Positions 3,016 to 63,056 of a DNA stretch of 64,000 bases are shown in pieces. The notes beneath the pieces are model-generated. The model was given only the letters and a program-made list of their open reading frames with translations, searched no databases and was not told the origin of the DNA. Every line of letters starts with the position of its first letter. The first letter of the stretch is position 1. The translations under genes were made by a program, and so were the position numbers. Source of the stretch: an uncultured Clostridia bacterium (GTDB lineage Bacteria > Bacillota > Clostridia > Lachnospirales > CAG-274); NCBI GenBank assembly GCA_944376805.1, contig CALWDX010000006.1, positions 1-64,000 of the forward strand, given 5' to 3'.

Positions 3016-4903
3016 ATGCTAAACTTTCCCATTCATCATATAAAGCAGTTAATTCTTCTTCTAGTTTAGTTTTTTCTTCAAAAATTTCTCTTGATTTATA
3101 AGGGTTAGTATAAACTTCTTCAAGTGCTAATTGTTCATTAGCTTCATTAATTTTATTTTCAATATCTTCGATTTTTTCTTCTAATTTTTTAATAGTATTT
3201 TGTTTTTTTCTAGCTTCAGCTTGAGCTTCTTTTTGAGCTTTCCAGTCTAATTTATTATCAGAAACTTCTTTATTTTGAGTATTTGCAGTTATATTTTCAA
3301 CTTGAGTACATTTTTCTAAATAATAGTCATAGTTGCCTAAGTAAATATTCATTTTATTTTTAGTAAGTTCAATAACTTTAGTAGCAGTATTATTAATAAA
3401 AAATCTATCGTGTGAAATATATATACAAGTACCAGTATAATTTTTGATAGCATCTTCTAAAATTTCTTTAGAAACCATATCTAAATGGTTAGTAGGTTCG
3501 TCTAAAATAAGAAAATTCGCATTAGAAAGCATAATTTTAGCAAGAGCAACACGCCCTTTTTCCCCACCACTTAAAGTGCCTATTTTTTTAAAAACGTCAT
3601 CACCAGTAAAAACAAAAACAGCAAGAGCATTTCTTATTTCTTCATTTTTAAGATTAGGGTAGGTGTCAGAAATTTCGTCAAAGATAGACTTGTCCATATT
3701 TAAATTTTGTTGTTCTTGGTCATAGTAGCCAATAACAACATTAGAGCCTAATTTTATACTGCCACTATCAATAGGTAATTTTTCCATAATCATTTTGATT
3801 AAAGTAGTTTTGCCAATACCATTAGCACCAATAAGAGCAACTTTTTCACCTTTTTTAATATCAAAGGAAATATTGATAAAAAGGTTAAAATCAAAACTTT
3901 TACATAAATTTTCAACAGTTAAAACATCATTACCACTTTCTTTTTTAGGTGAAAGAGTAAGACGCATTTGAGCAGGTAAATTATCTGGTTTTTCCATTTT
4001 TTCCATTTTATCAAGAAGTTTTTCACGGCTTTCAGCACGCTTAATAAACTTTTCACGATTGTATGAACGAAGTTTTTTAATAATTTCTTCTTGTTTTTTT
4101 ATTTCTTTTTGTTGGTTTATATAATGTTTTAACATAATTTCTCTAGCGATATGTTTTTTTTCAGAGTAATCAGAGTAGTTACCATTATAAATAGTAGCTT
4201 TAGTATTTTCAAGTTCAATAACTTTATTAACAATTTTATTTAAAAAATATCTATCATGAGAAATAATAAAAAGGGCTTTAGAATAAGATTTTAAAAAAGT
4301 TTCTAACCATTGAATAGATTTAATATCAAGGTGGTTAGTAGGTTCATCTAAAAGTAAAATATCAGGTTCTTCTAAAAGGATTTTACCAAGAGCTACACGG
4401 GTTTTTTGACCACCAGAAAGAAATTTAATTTGTTTAAAAAAGTCATCTTCAGAAAATCCAAGACCTTTTAATACACCTTTAATACGGCTATTATAATCAA
4501 AAGAATTGTTTTCACTAAGATATGTAGAAATTTTGTCATATTCTTTAATAATATTTTCAAGTTCAGTATTTTTAAGAGTAGACATTTTAACTTCTAATTC
4601 TCTAAGTTTAAATTCCATATCAATAATATTTTTAAAAACAGTTAAAAGTTCATCAAAAAGGGTATTTTCTTCATTAACATTTAAGTTTTGAGAGAAGTAG
4701 CCTATTTTAGTATTTTTAGGAATATTAATTTCTCCACTATCTTTAGAAATTTCTCCAATTAATATTTTAAAAAGAGTTGACTTACCAGCACCATTAACAC
4801 CAACAAGAGCTACTTTATCTTTTTCATTAATATTAAATGATATATTAGTAAGAATATTATTTATACCAAAAGATTTATTTATATCATTACAAGCTAAAAT
4901 CAT
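3014..4903 (-). CDS. ABC-F family ATPase (YdiF-like)
   Basis: 629-residue soluble twin-ATPase with no membrane segments, of the ABC-F family that acts on ribosomes. Domain 1 has Walker A GVNGAGKST and signature LSGGQKTRVALGK with LLLDEPTNHLD. Domain 2 has GANGIGKTT, LSGGEKGRVALAK and LILDEPTNHLD. A basic interdomain linker (KKQEEIIKKLRSYNREK) and a C-terminal coiled coil of about 80 residues match the YdiF/Uup group. As I recall, ydiF, rex and groESL also lie close together in Bacillus subtilis. It is a housekeeping ABC-F; no resistance role is implied. Divergent from rex. Confidence 0.9.
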   Translation of the reverse strand: MILACNDINKSFGINNILTNISFNINEKDKVALVGVNGAGKSTLFKILIGEISKDSGEINIPKNTKIGYFSQNLNVNEENTLFDELLTVFKNIIDMEFKLRELEVKMSTLKNTELENIIKEYDKISTYLSENNSFDYNSRIKGVLKGLGFSEDDFFKQIKFLSGGQKTRVALGKILLEEPDILLLDEPTNHLDIKSIQWLETFLKSYSKALFIISHDRYFLNKIVNKVIELENTKATIYNGNYSDYSEKKHIAREIMLKHYINQQKEIKKQEEIIKKLRSYNREKFIKRAESREKLLDKMEKMEKPDNLPAQMRLTLSPKKESGNDVLTVENLCKSFDFNLFINISFDIKKGEKVALIGANGIGKTTLIKMIMEKLPIDSGSIKLGSNVVIGYYDQEQQNLNMDKSIFDEISDTYPNLKNEEIRNALAVFVFTGDDVFKKIGTLSGGEKGRVALAKIMLSNANFLILDEPTNHLDMVSKEILEDAIKNYTGTCIYISHDRFFINNTATKVIELTKNKMNIYLGNYDYYLEKCTQVENITANTQNKEVSDNKLDWKAQKEAQAEARKKQNTIKKLEEKIEDIENKINEANEQLALEEVYTNPYKSREIFEEKTKLEEELTALYDEWESLA

Positions 4904-7001: not shown

Positions 7002-7018
7002 TTACAAGTAAATTACAA
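7002..7018. promoter_or_regulatory. TTACAA direct-repeat box 1
   Basis: TTACAA (7002-7007), GTAAA, TTACAA (7013-7018), an 11-nt period. Read on the minus strand it fits the WalR-type pattern TGTWAH-N5-TGTWAH; it also resembles PhoP-type direct repeats. It ends 14 nt before the -35 at 7033. Confidence 0.55.
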
Positions 7019-7032
7019 ATAGTCCAAACCTA

Positions 7033-7061
7033 TTGCAAAATATTTTAATTGGTGTTATATT
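7033..7061 (+). promoter_or_regulatory. Distal promoter of the stalk-domain gene
   Basis: TTGCAA (7033-7038), 17 nt, TATATT (7056-7061), giving a 5' UTR of about 245 nt. A stem CTAAC/GTTAG near 7143-7166 is the only clear structure I find in that leader. Confidence 0.55.
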
Positions 7062-7195
7062 ATATACAAGCAAGGCAAACAAATAAAAATACCACGCATT
7101 ATTTAAGAAAAGAGATATAACCTTATTTTTATTCTATTAATCTAACTCATTGTTTATAGGGGTTAGGCAAAACAACAAAGATTTTTTATAAAATG

Positions 7196-7212
7196 TTACA
7201 ATAATATTACAA
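7196..7212. promoter_or_regulatory. TTACAA direct-repeat box 2
   Basis: TTACAA (7196-7201), TAATA, TTACAA (7207-7212). Same 11-nt period as box 1 and the same 14-nt distance to the next -35 (7227). Confidence 0.55.
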
Positions 7213-7226
7213 CTTATGAAATACTA

Positions 7227-7255
7227 TTGACTATATAAGTTTGCAATGCTATAAT
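7227..7255 (+). promoter_or_regulatory. Proximal promoter of the stalk-domain gene
   Basis: TTGACT (7227-7232), 17 nt, TATAAT (7250-7255), about 50 nt before the SD of the gene. Confidence 0.75.
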
Positions 7256-7312
7256 AAATGAGTAAAAACGATAACTAATATGTTTTTTAAAAAAATTAGG
7301 AGGAATTATAAA

Positions 7313-10300
7313 ATGAAAAGAAAAATTGCGATTTTATTATCAGGTATAATGGTTGCAAGTGCTGTACCTATGACTGCAAGCGCTGCTAGATTAGACCCAG
7401 ATAAAGTTTTAAATGCTTCATTCTCTAAAGTGAATGAACCAATAGATATTGATGCTTATAATGCATTCTCTGGTAGCATTTCAAATTATCCAGATTATAT
7501 TAATAACTCTACAGATGTTAGACCACCTTCTCAAAATCTTCTTAGAACATTACCAGCAGATGGTGAAACTTTAACTAAAGAAACTTTAGCAAGTAGAAAA
7601 AGTGTTGTAAAAATCGACCTTACAGAAAACATTAGTGGTTCTGTATTAGTAAACCCTACTTTCAGAGTTACTTTAGAAAATGGTAGTTTTGATGAAACTT
7701 ATTTACAAAACTATTTATATACAAACACTAACAAAGATAAAGCTGTATCTTGGAAAACAGCAACAGCTAATGGTACTGCTACAACTTTAGAAGATATATA
7801 TAAAAATATTATTGCAGCTAATGTTGATAAATCTAATAAAGATGAATTTACTCAGCCAGAAGCAACTCCTGTTTGGAAAGAAGCTGGTGGAATTGATTCT
7901 TTAACAGGTACAACTATTCCTAGTGTTGATTCATCATCTTCTAAATTATTAAATGGATTAGCAAAAGTAAAAGAAGCAGTATCACAAGTTACAAGTGGTA
8001 ATGGTACATCAGCTAAATATGATTTAACTTTTACTTCTAATGTAGTTACTAAAACAAGTACAGGTGAATCAATTACTACTTTATCTGCTAATAGCCCTCA
8101 AGGTTTTGTAGATTTATATAATCATATTAATGAAACAAGTTATAAAGATTATACGGCACTTTCTAATGATATTAAAAAAGAATATATAAAAGAAAGAACA
8201 CAAGGATATGTAAGTCCTTCAATTGATGTGCCTAATATACCTTATACTTTCCAAAGAATAAGTGATAAAGAAGCTATTGTAACAGTTAATGCTACTCTTA
8301 CAGATGCAGATAAAAAACTTACTTTTAAAGTACCAGAAACTTCAACAATTGATGAAGCTTCTTTAGGAAATGTAAGAATTACAGATGGTTCTGACAATAT
8401 GGGTACTACAAATTTAGGATTTGATGCAGAGGGTTTAAAAACTATAACAAATGTAGTTATTGAAGGTAATAATGGTGCTGGTAGTCATACAGTAGTTGAA
8501 AAAGAAATTACTGTAGAAAATCCTTACATTGCATTACCTTTAGGTGGTGTTGTAGCTGATGGCGAAGGTCCTGTTAAAGCTAAAATTACTGCTGACTATA
8601 CAGACAAAGTTACTGCTAAAGAATTTGTTCTTAATGTAGGTAGTGAATCTGGTACTACTTCTTTAGTTTACAACAATTCAGATGTAAGAACTTTTGAAGA
8701 CCAAGTAGAATTAGGTAAAGTATTAGTTAAAGAAAATTCTAGAAATACACTTGGTAAAGATACAGACTATAATAGTACTTCTAAAAATGGCGTAAAAGAT
8801 AGTTTACAATTTGACCTTAAATTAAATAGTGGTTTCAAATTTACTAATAAAACTATTTCTCCTACTAGCAATGAAATAGATTATAAAAATGAAATTAAAC
8901 TTGCTTTAGAAGCAGCTAGTGCTGTAAGCATTACTCAATTAGAAGCAGAAGCTGATATTAAAGCTGAATATATTAATGAAAACCACATTAGAATTACTAT
9001 AACTCCTAAATCTGGTCAAAAAGGTTTAGAAACATTTGGTGCTAACCGTCAATATCCTATTGGTATAGCTGTTGAAAAATTAGATATTAAACCAGTTAGT
9101 GATAATATCTATGGTGATGCTACAATTACTGTTTCTGGTGATGGTATCAACACTCAAAGCACAACAGTAGCTAAAAGAGAAAAATTAGGTTTCCAATTAA
9201 AAACTTTAAAAGATCCTAAAGAAATTGTTTCTGGTAGACACTATACTCAAGATGGTAGAAATATGACTGATAGTGATAACACTACAGTTGAAATTCAATT
9301 CTCTGAAGGTGTTCCTAACACATTAGTAGAATCTAGAAACTTAGACTTTACTCTTCCAGAAGGTGTTAAAATTGCTGATGTAGAAGTTTCTGATTATAAA
9401 AACCTTAAAGATATTGGTGATAACAACTTTGAAATTATCAACAATGGTAGAACTTTAAGATTAAGAAGAATTGACAACACTAACAATCAATATGGAAGCA
9501 AATATTCTGTAGCTGATAAAGTTAACAAAGTTGCTAGCTTCAAAATGAAATTAGATTTATCTGTTGAACCAGGTTTCACAGGTGATATTAAACTTGGTGT
9601 AACTGGTGGCGGTCAAAGCGATACAGTTGAAACTGTTGTAGCTAAAGCAATCAACCCAGTTGAAGTTAAAACTTCTACTACTAAAGTTAACTTAGGTTAC
9701 CAAGATTACAACACAGCTGATATTACAATCACTGAAAATAGACCAGGTATGTTATTAGCTGATAGAGAAGTTAAATTAGAATTAAAAGCTCCTTATGGTG
9801 TTCAAGAAGTTGGTTTCTCTCAAGCTAAATTAGAAGTTAGTGGTGATGAATTATCTGTTAAAGATAGAGACTTCAGCGTTAGCAATGGTGTAATTAAATT
9901 CAAAGTTGATAGAAGCTCAAATAAAAACCCAGCTACTATTACTCTTAAAAATGTAAAAATTGGTTCTACTCGTTCTGTACCATATGGTAGCTACAACTTA
10001 TCTTTAAGTGGTGATGCTATTATCAACAACTACCAAAAAGGTGGTAAAGATGATAGAGGATACTACACTCCATTCATCTATGATAAAGATGTAAGTGTTC
10101 TTGATAACAACTACAACACTAATATCTCTTCTAGTACTTCAAACAGTGCTGCTGATACTCAAAGAGCTATGAACGGTTTAAGAGTTCAAGATAAAGTTGA
10201 CCATTACGAAATCAAAGATTACGTAAACGTTGTTACTGAAACTGGTACTTTTGATAAAACTGTTAAAGTATCTGTAGGTGATAAAACAGTTCTTATCGGT

Positions 10301-10849
10301 GACCAAGCTGTAGATATGGACGTTGCTCCTTATATCCAAGCTTCTAGCAATAGTACAATGGTTCCTTTAAGATTCGTTTCTGTTGCTTTAGGTGTAGATA
10401 CAGCTAATGTTACTAACCCAGATGATTCTAACAAAATCGCTTATGATGTAAATACTAAAACTGCTACAATCTACTATGGTGCTGGTACAGGTCAAAAAAT
10501 TATTCAATTCCAAGCTGGTAGCAACATTATGACAGTAGATGGTACTAGAATTCCTATGGAATATGGTGTTAAAGCTGAAATCAAAGATAGAAGAATGTTC
10601 GTTCCTTTCAGAGCTTTAGGTCAAGCTTTAGGTGTAAATGTTACTTGGGATGCTGACAGCAAAGCAGCTATTTACAATGCTGACAATGCAAGAAATGCAA
10701 ACAATAACAATACAACTGCTACTGAAAGTACTACTCAAACTACAACTGCTTCTACAACAACAGAAAGCACAACTAAATCTGATAGTACTACTCAAAGTAC
10801 TACAGCTTCTGATAGCACTACAACAGAAAGCACAACTGCTAAACAATAA
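7313..10849 (+). CDS. Large exported stalk-domain (S-layer-like) protein
   Basis: 1178-residue secreted surface protein. Signal peptide MKRKIAILLSGIMVASA with a cleavage region near TASAA. A very long beta-rich region without recognisable domains follows, then near the C-terminus two copper-amine-oxidase-N-like 'stalk' repeats (MVPLRFVSVALGV and MFVPFRALGQALGV), and a Thr/Ser-rich tail. The start is at 7313 because AGGAGGAA lies 7 nt upstream; the in-frame ATG at 7280 has no SD. Two tandem promoters, each with a TTACAA box, and C-ending codons in the 3' half suggest high expression. Probably an S-layer or wall-associated protein; there are no SLH domains, so the anchoring mode is unknown. Confidence 0.8.
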   Translation: MKRKIAILLSGIMVASAVPMTASAARLDPDKVLNASFSKVNEPIDIDAYNAFSGSISNYPDYINNSTDVRPPSQNLLRTLPADGETLTKETLASRKSVVKIDLTENISGSVLVNPTFRVTLENGSFDETYLQNYLYTNTNKDKAVSWKTATANGTATTLEDIYKNIIAANVDKSNKDEFTQPEATPVWKEAGGIDSLTGTTIPSVDSSSSKLLNGLAKVKEAVSQVTSGNGTSAKYDLTFTSNVVTKTSTGESITTLSANSPQGFVDLYNHINETSYKDYTALSNDIKKEYIKERTQGYVSPSIDVPNIPYTFQRISDKEAIVTVNATLTDADKKLTFKVPETSTIDEASLGNVRITDGSDNMGTTNLGFDAEGLKTITNVVIEGNNGAGSHTVVEKEITVENPYIALPLGGVVADGEGPVKAKITADYTDKVTAKEFVLNVGSESGTTSLVYNNSDVRTFEDQVELGKVLVKENSRNTLGKDTDYNSTSKNGVKDSLQFDLKLNSGFKFTNKTISPTSNEIDYKNEIKLALEAASAVSITQLEAEADIKAEYINENHIRITITPKSGQKGLETFGANRQYPIGIAVEKLDIKPVSDNIYGDATITVSGDGINTQSTTVAKREKLGFQLKTLKDPKEIVSGRHYTQDGRNMTDSDNTTVEIQFSEGVPNTLVESRNLDFTLPEGVKIADVEVSDYKNLKDIGDNNFEIINNGRTLRLRRIDNTNNQYGSKYSVADKVNKVASFKMKLDLSVEPGFTGDIKLGVTGGGQSDTVETVVAKAINPVEVKTSTTKVNLGYQDYNTADITITENRPGMLLADREVKLELKAPYGVQEVGFSQAKLEVSGDELSVKDRDFSVSNGVIKFKVDRSSNKNPATITLKNVKIGSTRSVPYGSYNLSLSGDAIINNYQKGGKDDRGYYTPFIYDKDVSVLDNNYNTNISSSTSNSAADTQRAMNGLRVQDKVDHYEIKDYVNVVTETGTFDKTVKVSVGDKTVLIGDQAVDMDVAPYIQASSNSTMVPLRFVSVALGVDTANVTNPDDSNKIAYDVNTKTATIYYGAGTGQKIIQFQAGSNIMTVDGTRIPMEYGVKAEIKDRRMFVPFRALGQALGVNVTWDADSKAAIYNADNARNANNNNTTATESTTQTTTASTTTESTTKSDSTTQSTTASDSTTTESTTAKQ
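10711..10846 (+). repeat. Thr/Ser/Glu low-complexity tail
   Basis: Degenerate coding repeats of units such as TESTTQ, TTTAS and SDSTTQS form the last 45 residues of the stalk protein. It is likely a flexible, possibly glycosylated C-terminal tail. DNA repeats are imperfect, so slippage length variation is possible. Confidence 0.8.
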
Positions 10850-10869
10850 TTTAATAGTACGTTATTTTA

Positions 10870-10898
10870 AAAAGTCTCCCTTTTGGGAGGCTTTTTTT
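10870..10898 (+). terminator. Terminator of the stalk-domain gene
   Basis: Stem AAAGTCTCCC / GGGAGGCTTT with a TTTT loop followed by a T run to 10898. Confidence 0.9.
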
Positions 10899-11046
10899 AT
10901 TATTAATAATTATTTTTAAATAAAAATTATTAAAAATTTTTATTAAATTAAAGTTGAAAAATTTAAGAAAATGGTATACAATAGTATTGTTATAATAGCC
11001 ATTTTGATATATTTATCAAAAATTAATCTGTAAGGGGGAATAATAA

Positions 11047-13293
11047 ATGAATGCTATAAAAAATTTAAAATTATATTTTAAGTTTTTAATAACTTTTGGA
11101 ATTCTTTTAATATTAGTATTAGTTATGGGATTTAGTGGTGTATATGGTTTAAATTATGCTAATAAAACTTATTATAATGCTATGATGTCTAATAATACCA
11201 TTGTTCAAGATGGTATGAAATTAACTGAAAATATTGCTGAAATGCGTCGTCTTGTAACTAGTGTTGCTAATAGATTAGAATTTACACAACAAGACCAACA
11301 AGCTATGCAACAGTCTTATCAAGCTGCTAAAGATGCTGCTCAGAATTATTTATCTAATGTTACAGCTATACATGAAAAAGGACATGATAGAACAGAAAAT
11401 ATTAACTTAATAAAAAGTATTATTTCATCTTTAGAAGAATATTATGCTTTATATGAACAACTTATTTTAATTATACAAAATCAAAATGAAGTTGAAGTTC
11501 AAGCAACTTTTTCAAAAATGGTTGATATTGGCAAAGACTTCTTTCAAGAGGCATATTTAGCTCCACAACAAGCTTTTCAAACTTTAATGTTTGATATGGA
11601 AATAGTTAAAGAAAGACTTGTAACAAGACAAATTGGATTAGGAGTTATGTTTGTTATTATTGTTATTGTTGGTAGCATATCAGGTATTACTCTTTCTCGC
11701 TTAATTAGAAAACCTTTAGAATATTTAACAAAAGTTGCTTATCAAGTTTCTAAAGGAAACTTAAATGTTGAATGTAGAAGTAATAACAAAGATGAAATAG
11801 GTTTATTATCAAATGCTATTTCTGATGTGTCTTATACTTTTGATGGGATATTAACTGACATAAATATATTATCTATTGAATTAGATAAAGGGAATATTAA
11901 TTATAGAATAGATGAAACTAAATATGAAGGTGCTTTTAAAGATACTATTATTTCTATAAATAATACTATTAATGATTTAATACAAGATTCTCTTTATATA
12001 GTAGAAAAAATTAAAGAATTTGGCAAAGGTGAATTCAATTCTAAAGTTAAGGAATTCCCAGGGGATAAAGGTATTGTTCAAATAGAAGTTGCTGCTGTTC
12101 AAAGTGCTTTAAAAAATGTTTCTGAAAATATTCACTATCTTATTGAAGCTGTTAATAATGGTAATCTTGAATTTAGATTAGATACTTCTAATTATATTGG
12201 TCAATGGCAATATATTACTAATGGTTTAAATAAATTAATTGAAAATGTTGTTTTACCTATTAAAGAAACTCAAAATGCTCTTGAACAATTTTCTAGTGGT
12301 AATTTTGAACATAGAATAACTAATGAATATAAAGGTGAATTTAACAATATTAAAGAAACTGTAAATTATACTGCTAAAACGATTGGTTCTTACATATCTG
12401 AAATTTCATCTATCTTAAATCAAATGGCACATAAAAATTTTGATGTTTATATTGAAAGAAATTATGTTGGTGATTTTGAAGAAATTCAAAAATCTGTAAA
12501 TTTAATTATTGATAATCTTAATATACTTACTAAAGAAATTATTGTTTCTGCTGAAAAAGTTTCTGAAGGTTCTAGACAAATATCTGATTCTAGTATTTCC
12601 CTTGCAGAAGGAGCTTCTAAACAAGCTGAAGCTGTAGAAGAACTTAATGCTACTATTAAGATTATTTCTCAACAAGCTACAGATAACTTTAAAAACTCTG
12701 AACAAGTTAATTTAGTTGCTAAAAAAACTAAACAAAATGCTAATGAGGGTAGTCAACAAATGGACAATATGCTTATTGCTATGGAGGAAATCAATGATGC
12801 TTCTAGCAGTATATCTAATATTATTAAAGTTATAGATGATATTGCTTTCCAAACTAATATTCTTGCCCTTAATGCTGCTGTTGAGGCTGCTCGTGCTGGT
12901 GAACACGGTAAAGGTTTTGCTGTTGTTGCTGAAGAAGTTCGTAACCTTGCTGCTAGAAGTCAACAAGCTGCTAAAGAAACTACTGAACTTATTAAAAGTA
13001 CTGTTTCAAAACTTTCTGAAGGCTCTAAAATTGCAAATGATACTGCTAAATCTTTAGCTAGTATTGTAGAAGAAATTCAAGAAATATCTAATCTAGTTGC
13101 TAATTCTACTAAATCTTCTAAGGAGCAACAAAAATCTATTCAAGAAGTTACTATTGGTATAGCTCAAATTGCTGATGTTACTCAAAGTAATAATGCTAAT
13201 AGTGAACAGTCTGCTGCTGCCGCTGAAGAATTAGCTACTCAAGCTCAAATATTCTATTCTTCAGTTTCTGACTTTAAATTGAAAAATAATTAA
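11047..13293 (+). CDS. Methyl-accepting chemotaxis protein
   Basis: 748-residue transmembrane chemoreceptor. TM1 is at about residues 12-34, an extracytoplasmic helical sensor spans about 35-195, TM2 is at about 196-220, then a HAMP domain. A long segment of HAMP-like repeats (each containing RI.NEYKGEF or similar) follows, then the signalling domain with the conserved hairpin tip [20 protein letters not shown]. The C-terminus (FKLKNN) has no CheR/CheB pentapeptide. SD AGGGGG before ATG 11047. It stands alone; no che or fli genes are in the window, so the ligand and array partners are unknown. Confidence 0.95.
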
Positions 13294-13301
13294 CTATTTT
13301 T

Positions 13302-13331
13302 AGGTTGAAGTTTTTTCTTCAACCTTTTTTT
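13302..13331 (+). terminator. Terminator of the chemoreceptor gene
   Basis: Stem AGGTTGAAG / CTTCAACCT with a TTTTTT loop, then a T run. Confidence 0.92.
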
Positions 13332-13371
13332 GTTAAGTATAAATATAACATTTTTGACAATAATTTATTCT

Positions 13372-13388
13372 TTACAATTTGATTACAA
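13372..13388. promoter_or_regulatory. TTACAA direct-repeat box 3
   Basis: TTACAA (13372-13377), TTTGA, TTACAA (13383-13388), the same 11-nt period as boxes 1 and 2. A promoter TAGACA (13405-13410)-N17-TATACA (13428-13433) starts 16 nt downstream. Alternatively TTTACA-N17-TATCAT (13371-13399) overlaps the box. Confidence 0.5.
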
Positions 13389-13557
13389 TATAGTATCATA
13401 TATATAGACAAAGAAAACAACAACTATTATACATAATATATTGTAAATATATAAGATAACAAATACTACATATAAATTAAAAAAATAATAGATAAAGCAA
13501 ATAAGATACAATAAAAGTTTTAAAAACATAAATTATATTTTGAAAGGATTAATTATT

Positions 13558-14226
13558 ATGAAAAAATTTTTTATTACAACTTTTGCTTTAACTTTATTTT
13601 CAACAGCAAGTGTATTTGGAGCTAGTTATTATCCAAATAACTCAATTTATAACTTTTTAACTATTAATGGTAAACCTATTACTGAATACAATCAAAATAA
13701 TAATCAAGGAAATAATAATAACAATAGTAACAACAACAATAACAATATTAATAAACCTAATGATAACAATAACAACAAACCTGAAAATAAACCAGACAAT
13801 AAACCTAGCAAACCTAATAATCCAACAGATAATGATGATAATTTAAATAGTTCTGTATCTTCTATTGAACAAGAAGTAGTTAGACTTGTTAATATAGAAA
13901 GACAAAAAGCAGGCTTACAACCTCTTAAATTAGATACAGAATTATCTAAGGTGGCAAGATTAAAATCTGAAGATATGAAAAAGAAAGGCTATTTCTCTCA
14001 TACTTCTCCTACTTATGGCTCACCTTTTGATATGTTAAAACAATTTAACATTACATATAAAACTGCTGGTGAAAATATTGCTAAAGGTCAAAAAACAGCT
14101 GAAAGAGTTGTTGATGCTTGGATGAATTCTGAAGGTCATAGAAGAAATATTCTTAGTAAATCTTTTACTCATATTGGTGTTGGTTTTTCTTCAAACCATT
14201 GGACACAATTATTTATTTCTAAATAA
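13558..14226 (+). CDS. Secreted CAP-domain (SCP/PR1-like, YkwD-type) protein
   Basis: 222-residue exported protein. Signal peptide MKKFFITTFALTLFSTASVFGAS, an Asn/Lys/Pro-rich spacer at about residues 45-95, and a C-terminal CAP domain from about residue 105 with VRLVNIERQKAGL, YFSHTSPTYGSP, AGENIAKG, VDAWMNSEGHRRNIL and HIGVGF. The two conserved His positions (in FSHTS and GHRRN) are present. Such proteins are secreted by many spore formers; their biochemical role is unsettled. ATG 13558 has the SD GAAAGGA; the TTG at 13540 precedes the SD and is rejected. Confidence 0.9.
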   Translation: MKKFFITTFALTLFSTASVFGASYYPNNSIYNFLTINGKPITEYNQNNNQGNNNNNSNNNNNNINKPNDNNNNKPENKPDNKPSKPNNPTDNDDNLNSSVSSIEQEVVRLVNIERQKAGLQPLKLDTELSKVARLKSEDMKKKGYFSHTSPTYGSPFDMLKQFNITYKTAGENIAKGQKTAERVVDAWMNSEGHRRNILSKSFTHIGVGFSSNHWTQLFISK

Positions 14227-55550: not shown

Positions 55551-58500
55551 GTGGAGAAAAGTAGAATACAGCCAATTAAGCTAGGCGACGTTGTTCGTAT
55601 GAGCTACTCAAGAATTGACGAAGTTTTAGAAATGCCTAATCTTCTTGCGCTTCAAAAAGATAGCTATGATTGGTTTATTGAAGAAGGTCTTAAAGAAGTG
55701 TTTGAAGATATATCACCAATAACAGACCATAGCAACAACCTTATACTTGAATTTATTGGGTTTAAATTAGATGCTGAGCCTAGATATTCTATTGCAGAGT
55801 GTAAAGAAAGAGATGCGACTTATGCAACAGCTTTAAGAGTAAAAACTAGACTTACTAATAAAAAAGATGATGAAATTAAAGAACAAGAAATTTTTATGGG
55901 TGATTTTCCATTAATGACAGATACAGGTACATTTGTTATAAATGGTGCAGAGCGTGTTATAGTTAGTCAGCTTGTTCGTTCTCCTGGTATCTATTATGCT
56001 ATGGAAAAAGATAAGGTTGGTAAAAACCTTATAAGTTCTACTGTTATACCTAACAGAGGGGCTTGGCTTGAATATGAAACAGATTCAAATGATGTATTTT
56101 ATGTAAGAGTAGATAGAAACCGTAAATTACCAGTAACTTCTTTAATTCGTGCTTTAGGTATTGGTACAGATGAAGAAATTATTCAATATTTTGGTGAAGA
56201 AGGTAAAATTCTTGCTACAATAGAAAAAGATATTGCTAAAACATATGAAGAAGGTTTATTAGAAGTTTATAAAAAAATAAGACCAGGTGAACCTCCAACA
56301 GTAGAAAGTGCACAATCATTACTTACAAGTATGTTTTATGACCCTAAAAGATATGACCTTGCTCGTGTAGGTAGATATAAATTTAATAAAAAGTTATCTT
56401 ACAAAAATAGAGCTAAAGGGTTTAAACTTGCTGAAAATGTAGTTGATTTGTCTACTGGTGAAATTTTAGCTAATGAAGGTGAAAAAATTACTAATGAATT
56501 AGCTGATAAAATTCAAAATGCAGGTGTACCATATATTAATATATATGTTGAAGAAGATAGAGTTTGTAAAGTTATAGGTAACCTTACTGTTGATGCTACA
56601 GAATATTTAAAATCATATGGTCTTACTAAAGAACAAGTAGGTATTAAAGAGGACGTTTATTATCCTGTTTTATTAGAATTACTTGAAATGGCAGAAGATA
56701 AAGATGATTTAATTTATAAAATAACTAGTAACCTTTCAAGATTAGTTCCTAAACATATTACTTTTGAAGATATTATGGCTAGTATTAACTATAATATACA
56801 TTTAGATTATGGTGTTGGTGCTGAAGATGATATTGACCACCTTGGAAATAGACGTATTAGAGCTGTTGGTGAACTTTTACAAAATCAATTTAGAATAGGT
56901 CTTTCTCGTATGGAAAGAGTTGTAAAAGAGAGAATGAACACTCAAACTTTAGAAACAATAACACCTCAAGCTTTAATTAATATTAAGCCGGTAACTGCTG
57001 TTATAAAAGAATTCTTTGGTAGTTCTCAATTATCACAGTTTATGGACCAAAATAATCCACTTAGTGAAATGACACATAAACGTCGTTTATCTGCTTTAGG
57101 TCCTGGAGGTTTATCAAGGGATAGAGCAGGATTTGAAGTTAGGGACGTACATACTTCACACTATGGTCGTATGTGCCCTATTGAAACTCCAGAGGGTCCA
57201 AATATCGGTCTTATTAACTCACTTGCTACTTTTGCTAAAATAAATCAATATGGATTTATAGAAGCACCTTATAGAAAAATAGATAAATCTGGTGATGTTC
57301 CTAGAGTTATTAATGAGTTTATATACATTACTGCTGATGAAGAAGAAAATTATGTTATTGCCCAAGCTAATGAGCCTTTAAATGAAAATGGAGAATTTAT
57401 TCATCCTAAAGTTACTGCTCGTCTTGGTGAAGATAATGTGGAAATAGAACCAAGTAAGATTGACCTTATGGACGTTTCTCCTAAACAGCTTGTTTCTGTT
57501 GCAACAGCATTAATACCTTTCCTTGAAAATGATGACGTTACAAGAGCATTAATGGGTTCTAATATGCAACGTCAGGCAGTTCCACTTTTAACAACAGAAG
57601 CTCCAGTTGTTGGTACTGGTATGGAGCATAAAACTGCTAAAGACTCTGGTGTAGTTATAGTTGCTAAAAATGATGGTGTTATAGAAAAAGTTGATGCTTC
57701 AGAAATTGTTATAAAAACTAATGAAGGTAGAAAAGATAGATATAAATTAAGTAAATTTAAAAGAAGCAATCAAAGTAACTGTATGAACCAAAAACCTATT
57801 ATATCAAAAGGGCAAGTTGTAAAAGCTGGTGATATAATTGCAGATGGTCCTTCTACAAAAGATGGTGAACTTGCACTTGGTAAAAATCCACTTATAGGAT
57901 TTATGACTTGGGAAGGTTACAACTATGAAGATGCTGTTTTACTTAGTGAAAGACTTGTAGCTGAAGATGTTTATACTTCTATTCACATAGAAGAATATGA
58001 ATGTGAAGCTAGAGACACTAAACTTGGCCCAGAAGAAATAACAAGAGATATACCAAACGTTGGTGATGATGCGTTAAGAGATTTAACTGAAAGTGGTATC
58101 ATTAGAATAGGTGCTGAAGTTGCTCCTAATGATATTCTTGTAGGTAAAGTTACTCCTAAAGGTGAAACAGAACTTACTGCTGAAGAAAGACTTTTAAGAG
58201 CTATTTTTGGTGAAAAAGCTCGTGAAGTTAGGGATACATCTTTAAGAGTTCCTCATGGTGAATGTGGTATAATTGTAGATGTTAAAATATTCACTCGTGA
58301 AAATGGTGATGAATTACCTCCAGGTGTTAATAAACTTGTGCGTGTTTATATAGCTCAAAAAAGAAAAATATCTGTTGGGGATAAAATGGCCGGTCGTCAT
58401 GGTAATAAAGGGGTTGTATCACGTGTATTACCTGTTGAAGATATGCCTTTCTTACCAAATGGTAGACCACTTGATATAGTTTTAAATCCTCTTGGTGTTC

Positions 58501-59456
58501 CTTCTCGTATGAACATTGGGCAGGTATTAGAAATACATTTATCTTTAGCAGCTAAAGTTTTAGATTGGAAAATAGCTACACCAGTATTTGATGGTGCTAA
58601 TGAAGAAGATATTATGGAAACTTTAGAACTTGCTAATGATTATGCAAATGCTCCTTGGGAAGAGTTTGAAGCTAAATGGAAAGACAAACTTAATGATGAA
58701 ATATTTGAATATTTAGAAAATAATAAAGCTCATAGAGAAGAATGGCGTGGAGTTAAACTTAATCATACTGGTAAAATAAAACTTAGAGATGGTAGAACTG
58801 GTGAAGAATTTGATAATGCTACAACAGTAGGATTTATGCATTATCTTAAATTACACCACCTTGTAGATGATAAAATTCATGCTCGTTCGACTGGTCCTTA
58901 TTCTCTAGTTACACAACAACCACTTGGTGGTAAAGCTCAATTTGGTGGACAAAGATTTGGTGAAATGGAAGTTTGGGCACTTGAAGCATATGGTGCATCT
59001 TATACTCTTCAAGAAATATTAACAGTTAAATCTGATGATATTGTAGGACGTGTTAAAACTTATGAAGCTATTGTTAAAGGTGAAAATATACCAGAACCAG
59101 GTGTACCAGAATCATTTAAAGTTTTATTAAAAGAGTTACAAGCATTAGGTTTAGATGTTAGAGTGCTTTTAGAAGATTCTACTGAAGTAGAAATAAAAGA
59201 ATCTGTTGATGATGTTGATACTGTTTCTGTAAATGTAAATATTGAAGGTACAGAAGAAGATGATGATAAAACAGATATTTTTGCAAATGTTTTACAAAAC
59301 AATCTTGTTATAGATGAAGATTTATCTGATTATGATGAGGTTGACCCTGTAGAAGAAATATTATTAGAAGAAGATATGGATTTAGACATAGACTTTGATG
59401 ATGATATTTTTGCGGATTTAGAAAAAGATTTTGATGATGATAAATTTAATGAATAA
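55551..59456 (+). CDS. rpoB: RNA polymerase beta subunit
   Basis: 1301 residues. The rifampicin pocket [15 protein letters not shown] and [14 protein letters not shown] has the wild-type Asp, His and Ser residues, predicting rifampicin sensitivity. C-terminal conserved [17 protein letters not shown] is present. About 75 strongly acidic residues ([14 protein letters not shown]... to [15 protein letters not shown]) extend past the usual end. Start GTG 55551 behind AAGGAG. No rplJ-rplL upstream. Confidence 0.98.
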
Positions 59457-59480
59457 TAGAAAGGAGAAAGGTGTTTTAAT

Positions 59481-62400
59481 ATGAGTACACAAAATAGTGA
59501 ACAATCTATAATTTTTGATTCTATTAAGATTGGATTAGCATCTCCTGAAAAAATAAGAGAATGGTCAAGAGGTGAGGTTAAAAAACCTGAAACTATAAAT
59601 TATAGAACCTTAAAACCAGAGAAAGATGGTCTTTTTTGTGAAAGAATATTTGGACCACAAAGAGACTGGGAATGTCATTGTGGGAAATTCAAAAGAGTTA
59701 GATATAAAGGTATTGTTTGTGATAGATGTGGTGTTGAAATAACAAAATCTAAAGTAAGAAGAGAGAGAATGGGGCATATTGAACTTGCTGCCCCGGTATC
59801 TCATATTTGGTACTTTAAAGGTATACCTAGCCGTATGGGTATTATACTTGGTATGAGTCCTAGAGCTTTAGAAAAAATATTATATTTTGCTAGTTATGTT
59901 GTTTTAGATGCTGGTAATACTTCATTATCTTATAAAGACCTTTTAACAGAAAAAGAATACAGAGAAGCCTATGACAAATATGGTAATGCTTTTACTGTTG
60001 GTATGGGTGCTGAAGCTGTTAAAATTCTTTTACAACAAATTGATTTAGAAAAAGAATCAAAAGAACTTAAAGCTCAACTCAAAGATAGTACAGGACAAAA
60101 AAGAATTAGAATAATTAAGAAATTAGAAGTTATTGAATCTTTTAGAGTTTCTAATAATAAACCAGAATGGATGATTTTAGATACTTTACCTGTAATACCT
60201 CCAGATATTAGACCAATGGTACAACTTGATGGTGGTAGATTTGCAACCTCTGATTTAAATGACCTTTATAGAAGAGTAATAAACAGAAATAACCGTCTTA
60301 AAAGACTTTTAGATTTAGGTGCTCCTGATATTATTGTAAGAAATGAAAAAAGAATGTTACAAGAAGCTGTAGATGCTCTTATTGATAATGGTAGAAGAGG
60401 TAGACCTGTTACTGGTCCTGGTAATAGAAGTTTAAAATCTCTTTCTGACCTTTTAAAAGGTAAACAAGGACGTTTTAGACAAAATCTTTTAGGTAAGCGT
60501 GTTGACTATTCTGGACGTTCTGTTATCGTTGTAGGTCCTAACTTAAAAATATATCAATGTGGTTTACCAAAAGAAATGGCAATAGAGTTATTTAAGCCTT
60601 TTGTTATGAAAAAGCTTGTTGAAGATGGTATTTCTCATAATATTAAATCTGCTAAACGTATGGTTGAGAGATTACAAAGAGAAGTTTGGGACGTTTTAGA
60701 AGAAGTTATTAAAGAACATCCTGTAATGCTTAATCGTGCTCCTACTCTTCACAGACTTGGTATACAAGCCTTTGAACCTGTTTTAGTAGAAGGACGTGCT
60801 TTAAAATTACACCCACTTGTTTGTACTGCTTATAATGCCGATTTTGATGGTGACCAAATGGCTGTACATGTTCCTTTATCTGTAGAAGCACAAGCAGAAT
60901 GTAGATTTTTATTACTTGCTCCTAATAACCTTTTAAAACCGTCTGATGGTGAACCTGTTACAGTTCCATCTCAAGATATGGTACTTGGTATTTATTATTT
61001 AACCCTTGAAAAAGATGGTGAAAAAGGTGAAGGCAAAGTATTTAAAGATGAAAATGAAGCTATTTTAGCTTATGATAATCATATAATTAGCTTACATGCT
61101 AAAATTAAAGTAAGAAGAACTATAAAAAATAAAGATGGTACTGTTGAAAGTAAATTAGTAAATACTACTGTTGGTAGAGTTATATTTAATGAAATAATTC
61201 CACAAGATATTGGATTTGTTGATAGAACTAAAGATGAACATAAATTTGATTTTGAAATAGACTTTTTATGTGATAAAAAAGCACTTGGTAAAATAATTAA
61301 TCGTTGTATAAATAAACATTCTGCAACAGACACTGCTAAAATGTTGGACGATATTAAAAACTTAGGTTTCAAATATTCTACAAAAGGTGCTTTAACAGTT
61401 TCTGTATCAGATATGGAAATACCAGCAGAAAAAGAAGGTTTCCTTGCTGAAGCAGATAAAGAAGTAGACAAAATTACTAAAATGTTTAGAAGAGGTCTTA
61501 TGACAGATGAAGAAAGACATTTTAAAGTAATTAAAGCTTGGGAAGCAGCAGACGACAAAATTACTAATGCACTTTTAGCTGGTCTTGGTAAATATAATGA
61601 TATTTATATGATGGCTCACTCAGGTGCAAGGGGTTCTAACAGACAGATTAAACAGTTAGCAGGTATGCGTGGTCTTATGGCATCACCTTCTGGGGAAACT
61701 ATTGAGCTTCCTATCAAAGCTAACTTCCGTGAAGGTCTTACTGTTCAAGAATACTTTATTTCAGCACACGGTGCTAGAAAAGGTCTTTCTGATACAGCTC
61801 TTAGAACTGCCGATTCAGGTTACTTAACAAGAAGACTTGTAGATGTATCTCAAGATATTATTATTAGAGAGTTTGACTGTGCTGAAGAAACTGGTGAAGT
61901 ACCAGGTATGTGGGTTAAAGCATTTATGGATGGTCAAGAAACTATTGAGCCTTTGTCTGATAGAATAAGAGGTAGATATTCAGTACAAGAAATTAGAAAT
62001 CCAGAAAATGGTGAAGTTATTGTAGAAGCTGATACTATGATTACTCCAGACCAAGCAGACTTAATTGAAAAATTAGGTATTGAAAAAGTTCTTATTAGAA
62101 ATATTTTAGCTTGTAGGTCTAGAAAAGGTGTTTGCTCTAAATGTTATGGTGCAAATATGGCTAGTGGTCGTGTTGTTAGGATAGGTGAGGCAGTAGGTAT
62201 TATTGCTGCACAATCTATCGGTGAACCTGGTACACAGCTTACAATGCGTACATTCCATACAGGTGGTGTTTCTGGTGGTACTGACCTTACACAAGGTCTT
62301 CCTCGTGTTGATGAATTATTTGAAGCTAGAAAACCAAAAGGTCTTGCTATTATAGCAGAGTTTGGTGGTAGAGTTTCTATTACAGAAACTAAAAATAAAA

Positions 62401-63056
62401 GAGAAGTTACTGTTACAGGTGATAATGGTGAAATTAAAGAATATCTTATACCATATGGTTCTCGTATAAAAGTATTAAATGGTGACTATATAGAAGCTGG
62501 CGATGAACTTACAGAAGGTAGTGTTAACCCTCATGATATTCTTAGAATTAAAGGTATTAGAGGTGTTCAAGACTATATGATTCAAGAAGTTCAAAGAGTT
62601 TACCGTTTACAAGGGGTTGATATTAATGATAAACATATTGAAGTTATTGTTAGACAAATGCTCAAACGTACTAAAATTGAAGAACCAGGAGATACAGACT
62701 TTTTACCAGGTAGCCTAATTGATTGGTTAGAATATGAAGAAACTAATCAACATATGGAACAAGAAGGTTTAGAAAAAGCAAATGGTAGTCGTGTTCTTTT
62801 AGGTATAACAAAAGCTGCTCTTGCTACAGAATCATTTCTTTCTGCTGCGTCATTCCAAGAAACAACAAAAGTTCTTACAGAGGCAGCAATAAAAGGTAAA
62901 GTAGACCCACTTATTGGTCTTAAAGAAAATGTTATTATAGGTAAACTTATACCAGCAGGTACAGGTATGCAAACTTATAGAAAAATAGATTTGAAATTAG
63001 AAAAAGAAAAAGATTTAATACAAGAAAATGAAACTTTGTCTGAAGAAGTTTATTAA
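59481..63056 (+). CDS. rpoC: RNA polymerase beta' subunit
   Basis: 1191 residues. N-terminal zinc ribbon [20 protein letters not shown], catalytic [12 protein letters not shown] with three metal-binding Asp, and the second zinc site [23 protein letters not shown] and 24 nt after rpoB, one operon. The usual downstream L7Ae-rpsL-rpsG genes are absent; a terminator follows. Confidence 0.99.

Follow-up and report, generated by a model that had tools for sequence, protein, structure and literature searches.

Background

The WalRK two-component system is essential in most Bacillota and is a drug target; peptidoglycan hydrolases are the hallmark targets of WalR, and YycH and YycI are modulators of WalK. 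The Pho box of the PhoP/PhoB regulators has an 11-nt half-site period and can overlap the -35 region, and the B. subtilis Pho half-site reads TTAACA or TTTACA. As given in excerpts of the respective papers, the WalR consensus is TGTWAH-N5-TGTWAH in B. subtilis (PMC9210968) and TGTHH-N6-WGTNDD in S. aureus (PMC10746227). The same excerpt on S. aureus states that sites upstream of the -35 lead to activation and sites between or downstream of the -35 and -10 to repression, the orientation being irrelevant (PMC10746227). In C. difficile, according to the available part of PMC9210968, the clostridial WalRK controls exported and S-layer proteins, with predictions there made from the B. subtilis consensus; in this respect the system described below would be similar.

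The DNA studied here, referred to as the window, is a stretch of 64,000 nt (contig CALWDX010000006.1 positions 1-64,000, assembly GCA_944376805.1) from an uncultured Clostridia bacterium (CAG-274). A sequence-only reading of it had claimed three TTACAA-N5-TTACAA boxes at a fixed distance before promoters of surface proteins and had proposed a WalR regulon. The boxes share with the sites of WalR (YycF/VicR) the 11-bp direct repeat, the matching sequence, the occurrence in either orientation, the position-dependent relation to the promoter and the envelope targets. They differ from known WalR sites in that TGTAAY almost always ends in C or T, and from known WalR regulons in what they precede: genes for stalk-domain, SLH, LCP and SWM-repeat proteins in place of clear wall hydrolases, with one site in the wal locus. 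The rpoB and rpoC genes are in the same window, at 55551-63056, downstream of the studied region.

Results and Discussion

Two boxes upstream of the stalk-domain gene

The three boxes were found as exact matches at the claimed positions, all on the + strand and with the 11-nt half-site period ascribed to them (Table 1). The first two precede the stalk-domain gene and end exactly 14 nt before a -35 hexamer, as the sequence-only reading had it. The start of this gene was assigned to 7313, which comes after AGGAGG, and a start at 7280 was rejected.

Table 1 Features of the stalk-domain, CAP and wal loci
Feature	Position	Strand	Remarks
WalR-type box 1 (candidate)	7002..7018	+	Upstream of stalk-gene P1; exact match; R-type at both half-sites
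Promoter P1	7033..7061	+	TTGCAA 7033-7038, 17 nt, TATATT 7056-7061
WalR-type box 2 (candidate)	7196..7212	+	Upstream of stalk-gene P2; exact match; PWM 22.5
Promoter P2	7227..7255	+	TTGACT 7227-7232, 17 nt, TATAAT 7250-7255; 11/12 hexamer matches
Stalk-domain gene	7313..10849	+	1178-aa exported protein; signal peptide, two copper amine oxidase N1 stretches
CAP-gene promoter	13371..13399	+	TTTACA 13371-13376, 17 nt, TATCAT 13394-13399
Third box	13372..13388	+	Exact match, overlaps CAP promoter; class membership not supported in this genome
CAP gene	13558..14226	+	222-aa exported CAP-domain protein
wal-locus WalR-type box (candidate)	G000:C69 10972-10988		Between walK and Ig-like accessory gene
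Accessory genes (Ig-like exported, YycH-like, YycI)	G000:C69 11045-13766		After the box

The genus set consisted of the organism's own genome (G000; 1.86 Mb, 83 contigs) and seven other genomes, and orthologues of the stalk-domain gene are present in all eight. The upstream regions of seven were aligned, G001 being left out because a contig end cuts its upstream region. In all seven, box 1 reads TTACAR-N5-TTACAA and box 2 reads TTACAR-N5-TTACAN. P1 keeps identical hexamers, the 17-nt spacer and the 14-nt distance between box and -35 in 7/7 genomes; at P2 this distance is 14 nt in six of the seven and 13 nt in G003. Both promoters have sigma-A-type -35 and -10 hexamers 17 nt apart, conserved in 7/7 genomes. 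On the reverse strand both boxes read TGTAAT-N5-TGTAAC and fit TGTWAH-N5-TGTWAH, in agreement with the WalR resemblance noticed earlier. Judged by the aligned sequences, the two stalk-gene boxes are genuine conserved regulatory elements.

Distribution of the box in the genus

A genome-wide scan of G000 gave 11 exact boxes, against 4 for the backward pattern; a second-order Markov model built from 462 kb of this genome puts the expected number at 3.9 for the whole genome and at 0.84 for its intergenic tenth. The matches cluster between genes: ten of the 11 are intergenic, preceding nine signal-peptide genes, and one is inside a gene. The targets of nine boxes are the stalk-domain gene (two boxes), the CAP, LCP and SLH genes, the genes for a 312-aa stalk-domain protein, for a SWM-repeat protein (assigned from a weak Pfam hit) and for another stalk-domain protein, and a small exported gene of the wal locus. 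The tenth intergenic box precedes one more signal-peptide gene, on contig C53. No clear peptidoglycan hydrolase gene was found among the exact-box targets of G000.

Signal peptides were called by a home-made hydropathy rule, the same for background and matches, and genes by a simple longest-ORF caller, both heuristic; with them 46 of 225 background transcription-unit heads in G000 count as signal-peptide genes, and at this rate the chance of 8 such genes is 3e-6. The chance of 10 intergenic sites with 0.84 expected is 2e-8. The seven other genomes contain 58 exact boxes, of which 8 are inside genes and 50 upstream, 38 of the latter before signal-peptide genes; since multi-genome counts include orthologous promoters and are non-independent, the argument rests on the own-genome counts.

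By spacing, the genus totals are 25 for N4, 69 for N5 and 52 for N6. These raw totals were judged insufficient because N6 fits codon periodicity, and the position relative to genes was therefore used: with N4 or N6 spacing 17 of 20 matches are inside genes, a check covering 20 of the 77 matches (G000 and G002). For the backward pattern in the eight genomes, 11 of 19 matches are inside genes, 4 upstream and 4 neither. The tight form is in excess and largely intergenic, as counted above, whereas the looser forms are not in excess: with two mismatches allowed, 48 were found in the window against 50 expected, and TTWCA-N6-TTWCA, which was dropped, gave 107 against 103 genome-wide. The signal therefore resides in the tight site alone, any excess being lost once mismatches or a looser core are admitted.

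The refined site

A refined site was derived from 33 distinct sites at six targets, taken from aligned orthologous promoters. Positions 0 and 11, which were unused in finding the sites, are each a purine in 32/33, and the lone non-purine site is a wrongly picked sequence of G004, whose true P2 site appears in the alignment. The refined pattern is RTTACAD-N4-RTTACAD, on the reverse strand TGTAAY-N5-TGTAAY, the form of a WalR box. It has 10 matches in G000, nine before eight genes for exported or membrane-anchored proteins and one new match in coding sequence, while the CAP box and the exact match in coding sequence drop out. Across the genus there are 71 matches, compared with 26 for the backward control, and in the window the only zero-mismatch matches are the two stalk-gene boxes.

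The third box and the leaders

The box before the CAP gene had been placed 16 nt before a -35 TAGACA (13405-13410) with a -10 TATACA (13428-13433). These hexamers can be read but are not conserved in the genus alignment, which shows TTTACA 13371-13376 as the -35 of the conserved promoter; this hexamer itself thus makes up the first half of the box. This promoter, TTTACA-N17/18-TATYAT, is kept in 8/8 genomes, the -10 in G006 being TAATAT. The second half, TTACAA, is kept in four of the eight (G000, G001, G002 and G003), a T stands in place of R before the first half, and the PWM score is 13.6 compared with a training minimum of 18.5; on these grounds the CAP box was rejected as a third member of the class. 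In G005 and G006 an R-type box lies about 44 nt further up at the CAP gene.

The CAP leader (13400-13557, about 155-160 nt) is unusually well conserved in the eight genomes. The leader between P1 and P2 (7062-7195) contains the linear elements ATATACAAGCAARGCAAACA in 7/7 genomes and a TATAGGGGTTAGGCAAA-like element in most. RNAalifold gave no consensus RNA fold for either leader, and a search of Rfam returned 0 families at the gathering cut-off, with a single sub-threshold sRNA match (E 0.085).

Position of the box at other targets

Throughout the genus the box recurs before the same orthologues, at distances that stay fixed. At the LCP gene it lies 34 nt (once 35) upstream of TTGAAA-N17-TATACT in 7/7 genomes. 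At the SLH gene it starts 2 nt after the -10 in all seven aligned genomes (our script matched 6/7 because the -35 of G003 has diverged; the alignment gives 7/7) and should therefore cover the start point, start points here being those inferred from the -10. Thus the fixed distance described earlier holds for each promoter but not across promoters: it is 14 nt at the stalk gene and 34 nt at the LCP gene, while the box lies over the start point at the SLH gene and replaces the -35 in the wal locus. By the position rule of S. aureus, the stalk and LCP genes would be activated and the SLH gene repressed.

Two further arrangements were observed in G000. Before a second SWM-type exported gene (C53, ~1823-1850; the gene is cut by the contig end) a box ends 3 nt before a TTGACT -35, a distance exactly 11 nt, or one helical turn, shorter than the 14 nt of the stalk gene. 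Weaker tandem WalR-type half-sites lie between divergent genes for an exported and a membrane-anchored protein (C17, ~4335-4365), and G003 has an exact box in a similar-looking arrangement.

A box and promoter inside the wal locus

The genes of the wal locus are in the order walR, walK, a gene for a 152-aa exported Ig-like protein, a yycH-like gene and yycI. The walK product has WalK as its best family, at 467 bits, far below the cut-off of 725. YycI has a Pfam match above cut-off; the YycH-like protein, which has no Pfam hit, is named by position and shape. The 152-aa protein has a signal segment and, in a predicted structure (mean pLDDT 78), a beta-sandwich; its Ig-like Pfam hits are weak, as are the matches of the model to beta-sandwich domains, with a best query TM-score of 0.46 among the matches listed.

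In the promoter between walK and the Ig-like gene there is no -35, and exactly 10 nt separate the end of the box from TATAAT in 7/7 genus genomes having the accessory gene; a further half-site-like element is often found 11 nt up. Among the family genomes with the gene, 17 of 18 have TGTAAY-N5-TGTAAY-N10 followed by a -10 hexamer at this place, the exception being G015. In the nineteenth, G002, the yycH-like gene comes immediately after walK, and both the accessory gene and the box are missing.

We also scored 51 named wal loci of uncultured Eubacteriaceae, Clostridia and Defluviitaleaceae genomes and of Candidatus Gallispira, a set that overlaps the family genome set (six contigs). Of the 42 with the accessory gene, 35 reach a score (box plus -10) of 15 or 16; L259 scores 14 and like G015 has no clear box. 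In L262 and L270 fewer than 70 nt precede the accessory gene, so that these loci could not show a box, and in L253, L266, L271 and L272 the box is absent despite the accessory gene. A box was found in 0/9 loci without the accessory gene, and none of 95 control segments scores above 13. The WalR-type promoter is thus present with the Ig-like protein and absent without it. Of the box sites found, that of the wal locus is conserved most widely.

Upstream of walR itself, a PWM scan of contig C69 showed no box. A search of the open-access PMC literature found no report of a WalR site inside a wal locus. For S. aureus, an excerpt of PMC4801191 states that no WalR site was identified in the walRKHI promoter, and for B. 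subtilis, an excerpt of PMC7299342 argues from the lack of autoregulation of the operon that the levels of WalK-WalH-WalI are unlikely to change. The wal operon of C. difficile, in the part of PMC9210968 available, is walA-walR-walK-truA2 and is reported not to be autoregulated; the present locus differs in having Ig-like, yycH-like and yycI genes, with a WalR-type promoter that follows walK. As these published negatives refer to the promoter of the main operon, they are extended and not contradicted by a promoter that lies inside the locus and serves the accessory genes.

The candidate regulator

The site, its spacing and conservation, the neighbouring genes and the WalR gene are read from the sequence, and from them we infer WalR to be the binder. 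We give a probability of about 0.82 to the reading that the boxes are WalR sites controlling envelope genes and, by feedback, the genes for WalR's accessory proteins. The regulator of this genome that best matches YycF/WalR is encoded on contig C69 and scores 333 bits. The DNA-binding domain of this regulator has solved WalR/VicR/YycF domains as its first matches, and its recognition helix, at the position where we presume it to lie, differs from that of S. aureus WalR at one residue. Counting against WalR are that its score is 7 bits below the NCBIfam YycF cut-off of 340 and that other OmpR-type regulators in the genome could read a similar site; the low score of WalK, the targets without a clear hydrolase, the lack of excess of the looser motifs and the pstS box described below also speak against this reading.

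One of the latter, such as that on contig C50 or C62, might read the R-type box, the box in the wal locus then reflecting cross-regulation. With the YycF model the next-best regulators reach 271 and 266 bits, and the one on C50 adjoins a gene which we take to be D-alanyl-D-alanine carboxypeptidase-like; but their DNA-binding helices, VDVHVRRLREK and VDVHVKRLREK, are further from the VDVTIRRLREK of WalR, the site matches the published WalR consensus, and no box site is conserved more widely than that of the wal locus. We consider this explanation improbable.

A slightly smaller probability is given to the boxes being Pho boxes, bound by a PhoB/PhoP-type regulator (C57), with phosphate-responsive genes. 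Read in reverse complement, the WalR hexamer overlaps with the half-site of the B. subtilis Pho box as commonly given, a PhoB-type regulator with a kinase next in order is present in the genome, and a pstS-like lipoprotein gene carries a near-identical box, TTTACAA-N4-TTTACAA, at a fixed distance in 7/7 genomes with an assembled promoter (G001-G007; the G000 promoter, at a contig edge, is absent). At positions 0 and 11, however, the pstS boxes have T in 6/6 distinct sites where the envelope set has a purine, and the other targets in the genus are envelope genes, with one box in the wal locus. The pstS boxes resemble the Pho box with its T before TTACA and may well be sites of the PhoB-type regulator, whereas the stalk boxes have A or G before TTACAA. 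An excerpt of a study of S. epidermidis lists, among predicted YycF sites, an R-type ltaS site and a pstS site similar to the pstS boxes described here (PMC5405149).

Chance, by which AT-rich DNA would give such repeats and three were noticed, is very improbable: the excess is lost once mismatches are allowed and this explanation applies partly to the CAP box, but it is ruled out for the stalk, LCP, SLH, 312-aa and wal-locus boxes by their conservation in fixed geometry across species and by the specificity for N5 over N4 and N6.

With WalR as the binder, WalR~P would occupy two half-sites one helical turn apart just upstream of the two sigma-A-type promoters of the stalk gene and probably activate both. 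The same site, placed differently, would mark further genes of the genus for exported or membrane-anchored envelope proteins (LCP, SLH, other stalk-domain and SWM-repeat proteins), as well as the promoter of the accessory arm of the wal locus, where it would replace the -35 exactly 10 nt before the -10. The WalR two-component regulon for surface proteins proposed in the sequence-only reading is, as far as sequence comparison goes, well supported by the fit of the box, its intergenic position before signal-peptide genes, its genus-wide geometry, the presence of the walR-walK genes with their partners and the box of the wal locus itself; the CAP box is the part that falls outside the class.

Implications for the Wal system

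For the stalk gene, the result extends a known regulon in a sound but ordinary way. The base before TTACAA, purine or T, suggests a simple rule by which sites of the WalR and Pho types, whose published consensus overlaps, can be separated. The WalR-type promoter in the wal locus, outside the original window, is the more interesting part. Because in this group of uncultured gut clostridia the box stands before the genes of WalR's own helper proteins, the wall-control system may regulate part of itself, and the promoter would feed back onto the YycH-like protein and YycI, modulators of WalK elsewhere. We think the chances somewhat better than even that the Wal system of this clostridial family acts in part on itself, the WalR promoter driving the Ig-like, YycH-like and YycI genes in a feedback that tunes the WalK set point and is reportedly lacking in B. 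subtilis, S. aureus and C. difficile, and that the Ig-like protein is a lineage-specific Wal accessory factor gained (or lost) together with its WalR promoter. A conserved WalR-type promoter on the accessory genes makes the question of how the set point of WalRK is tuned directly testable.
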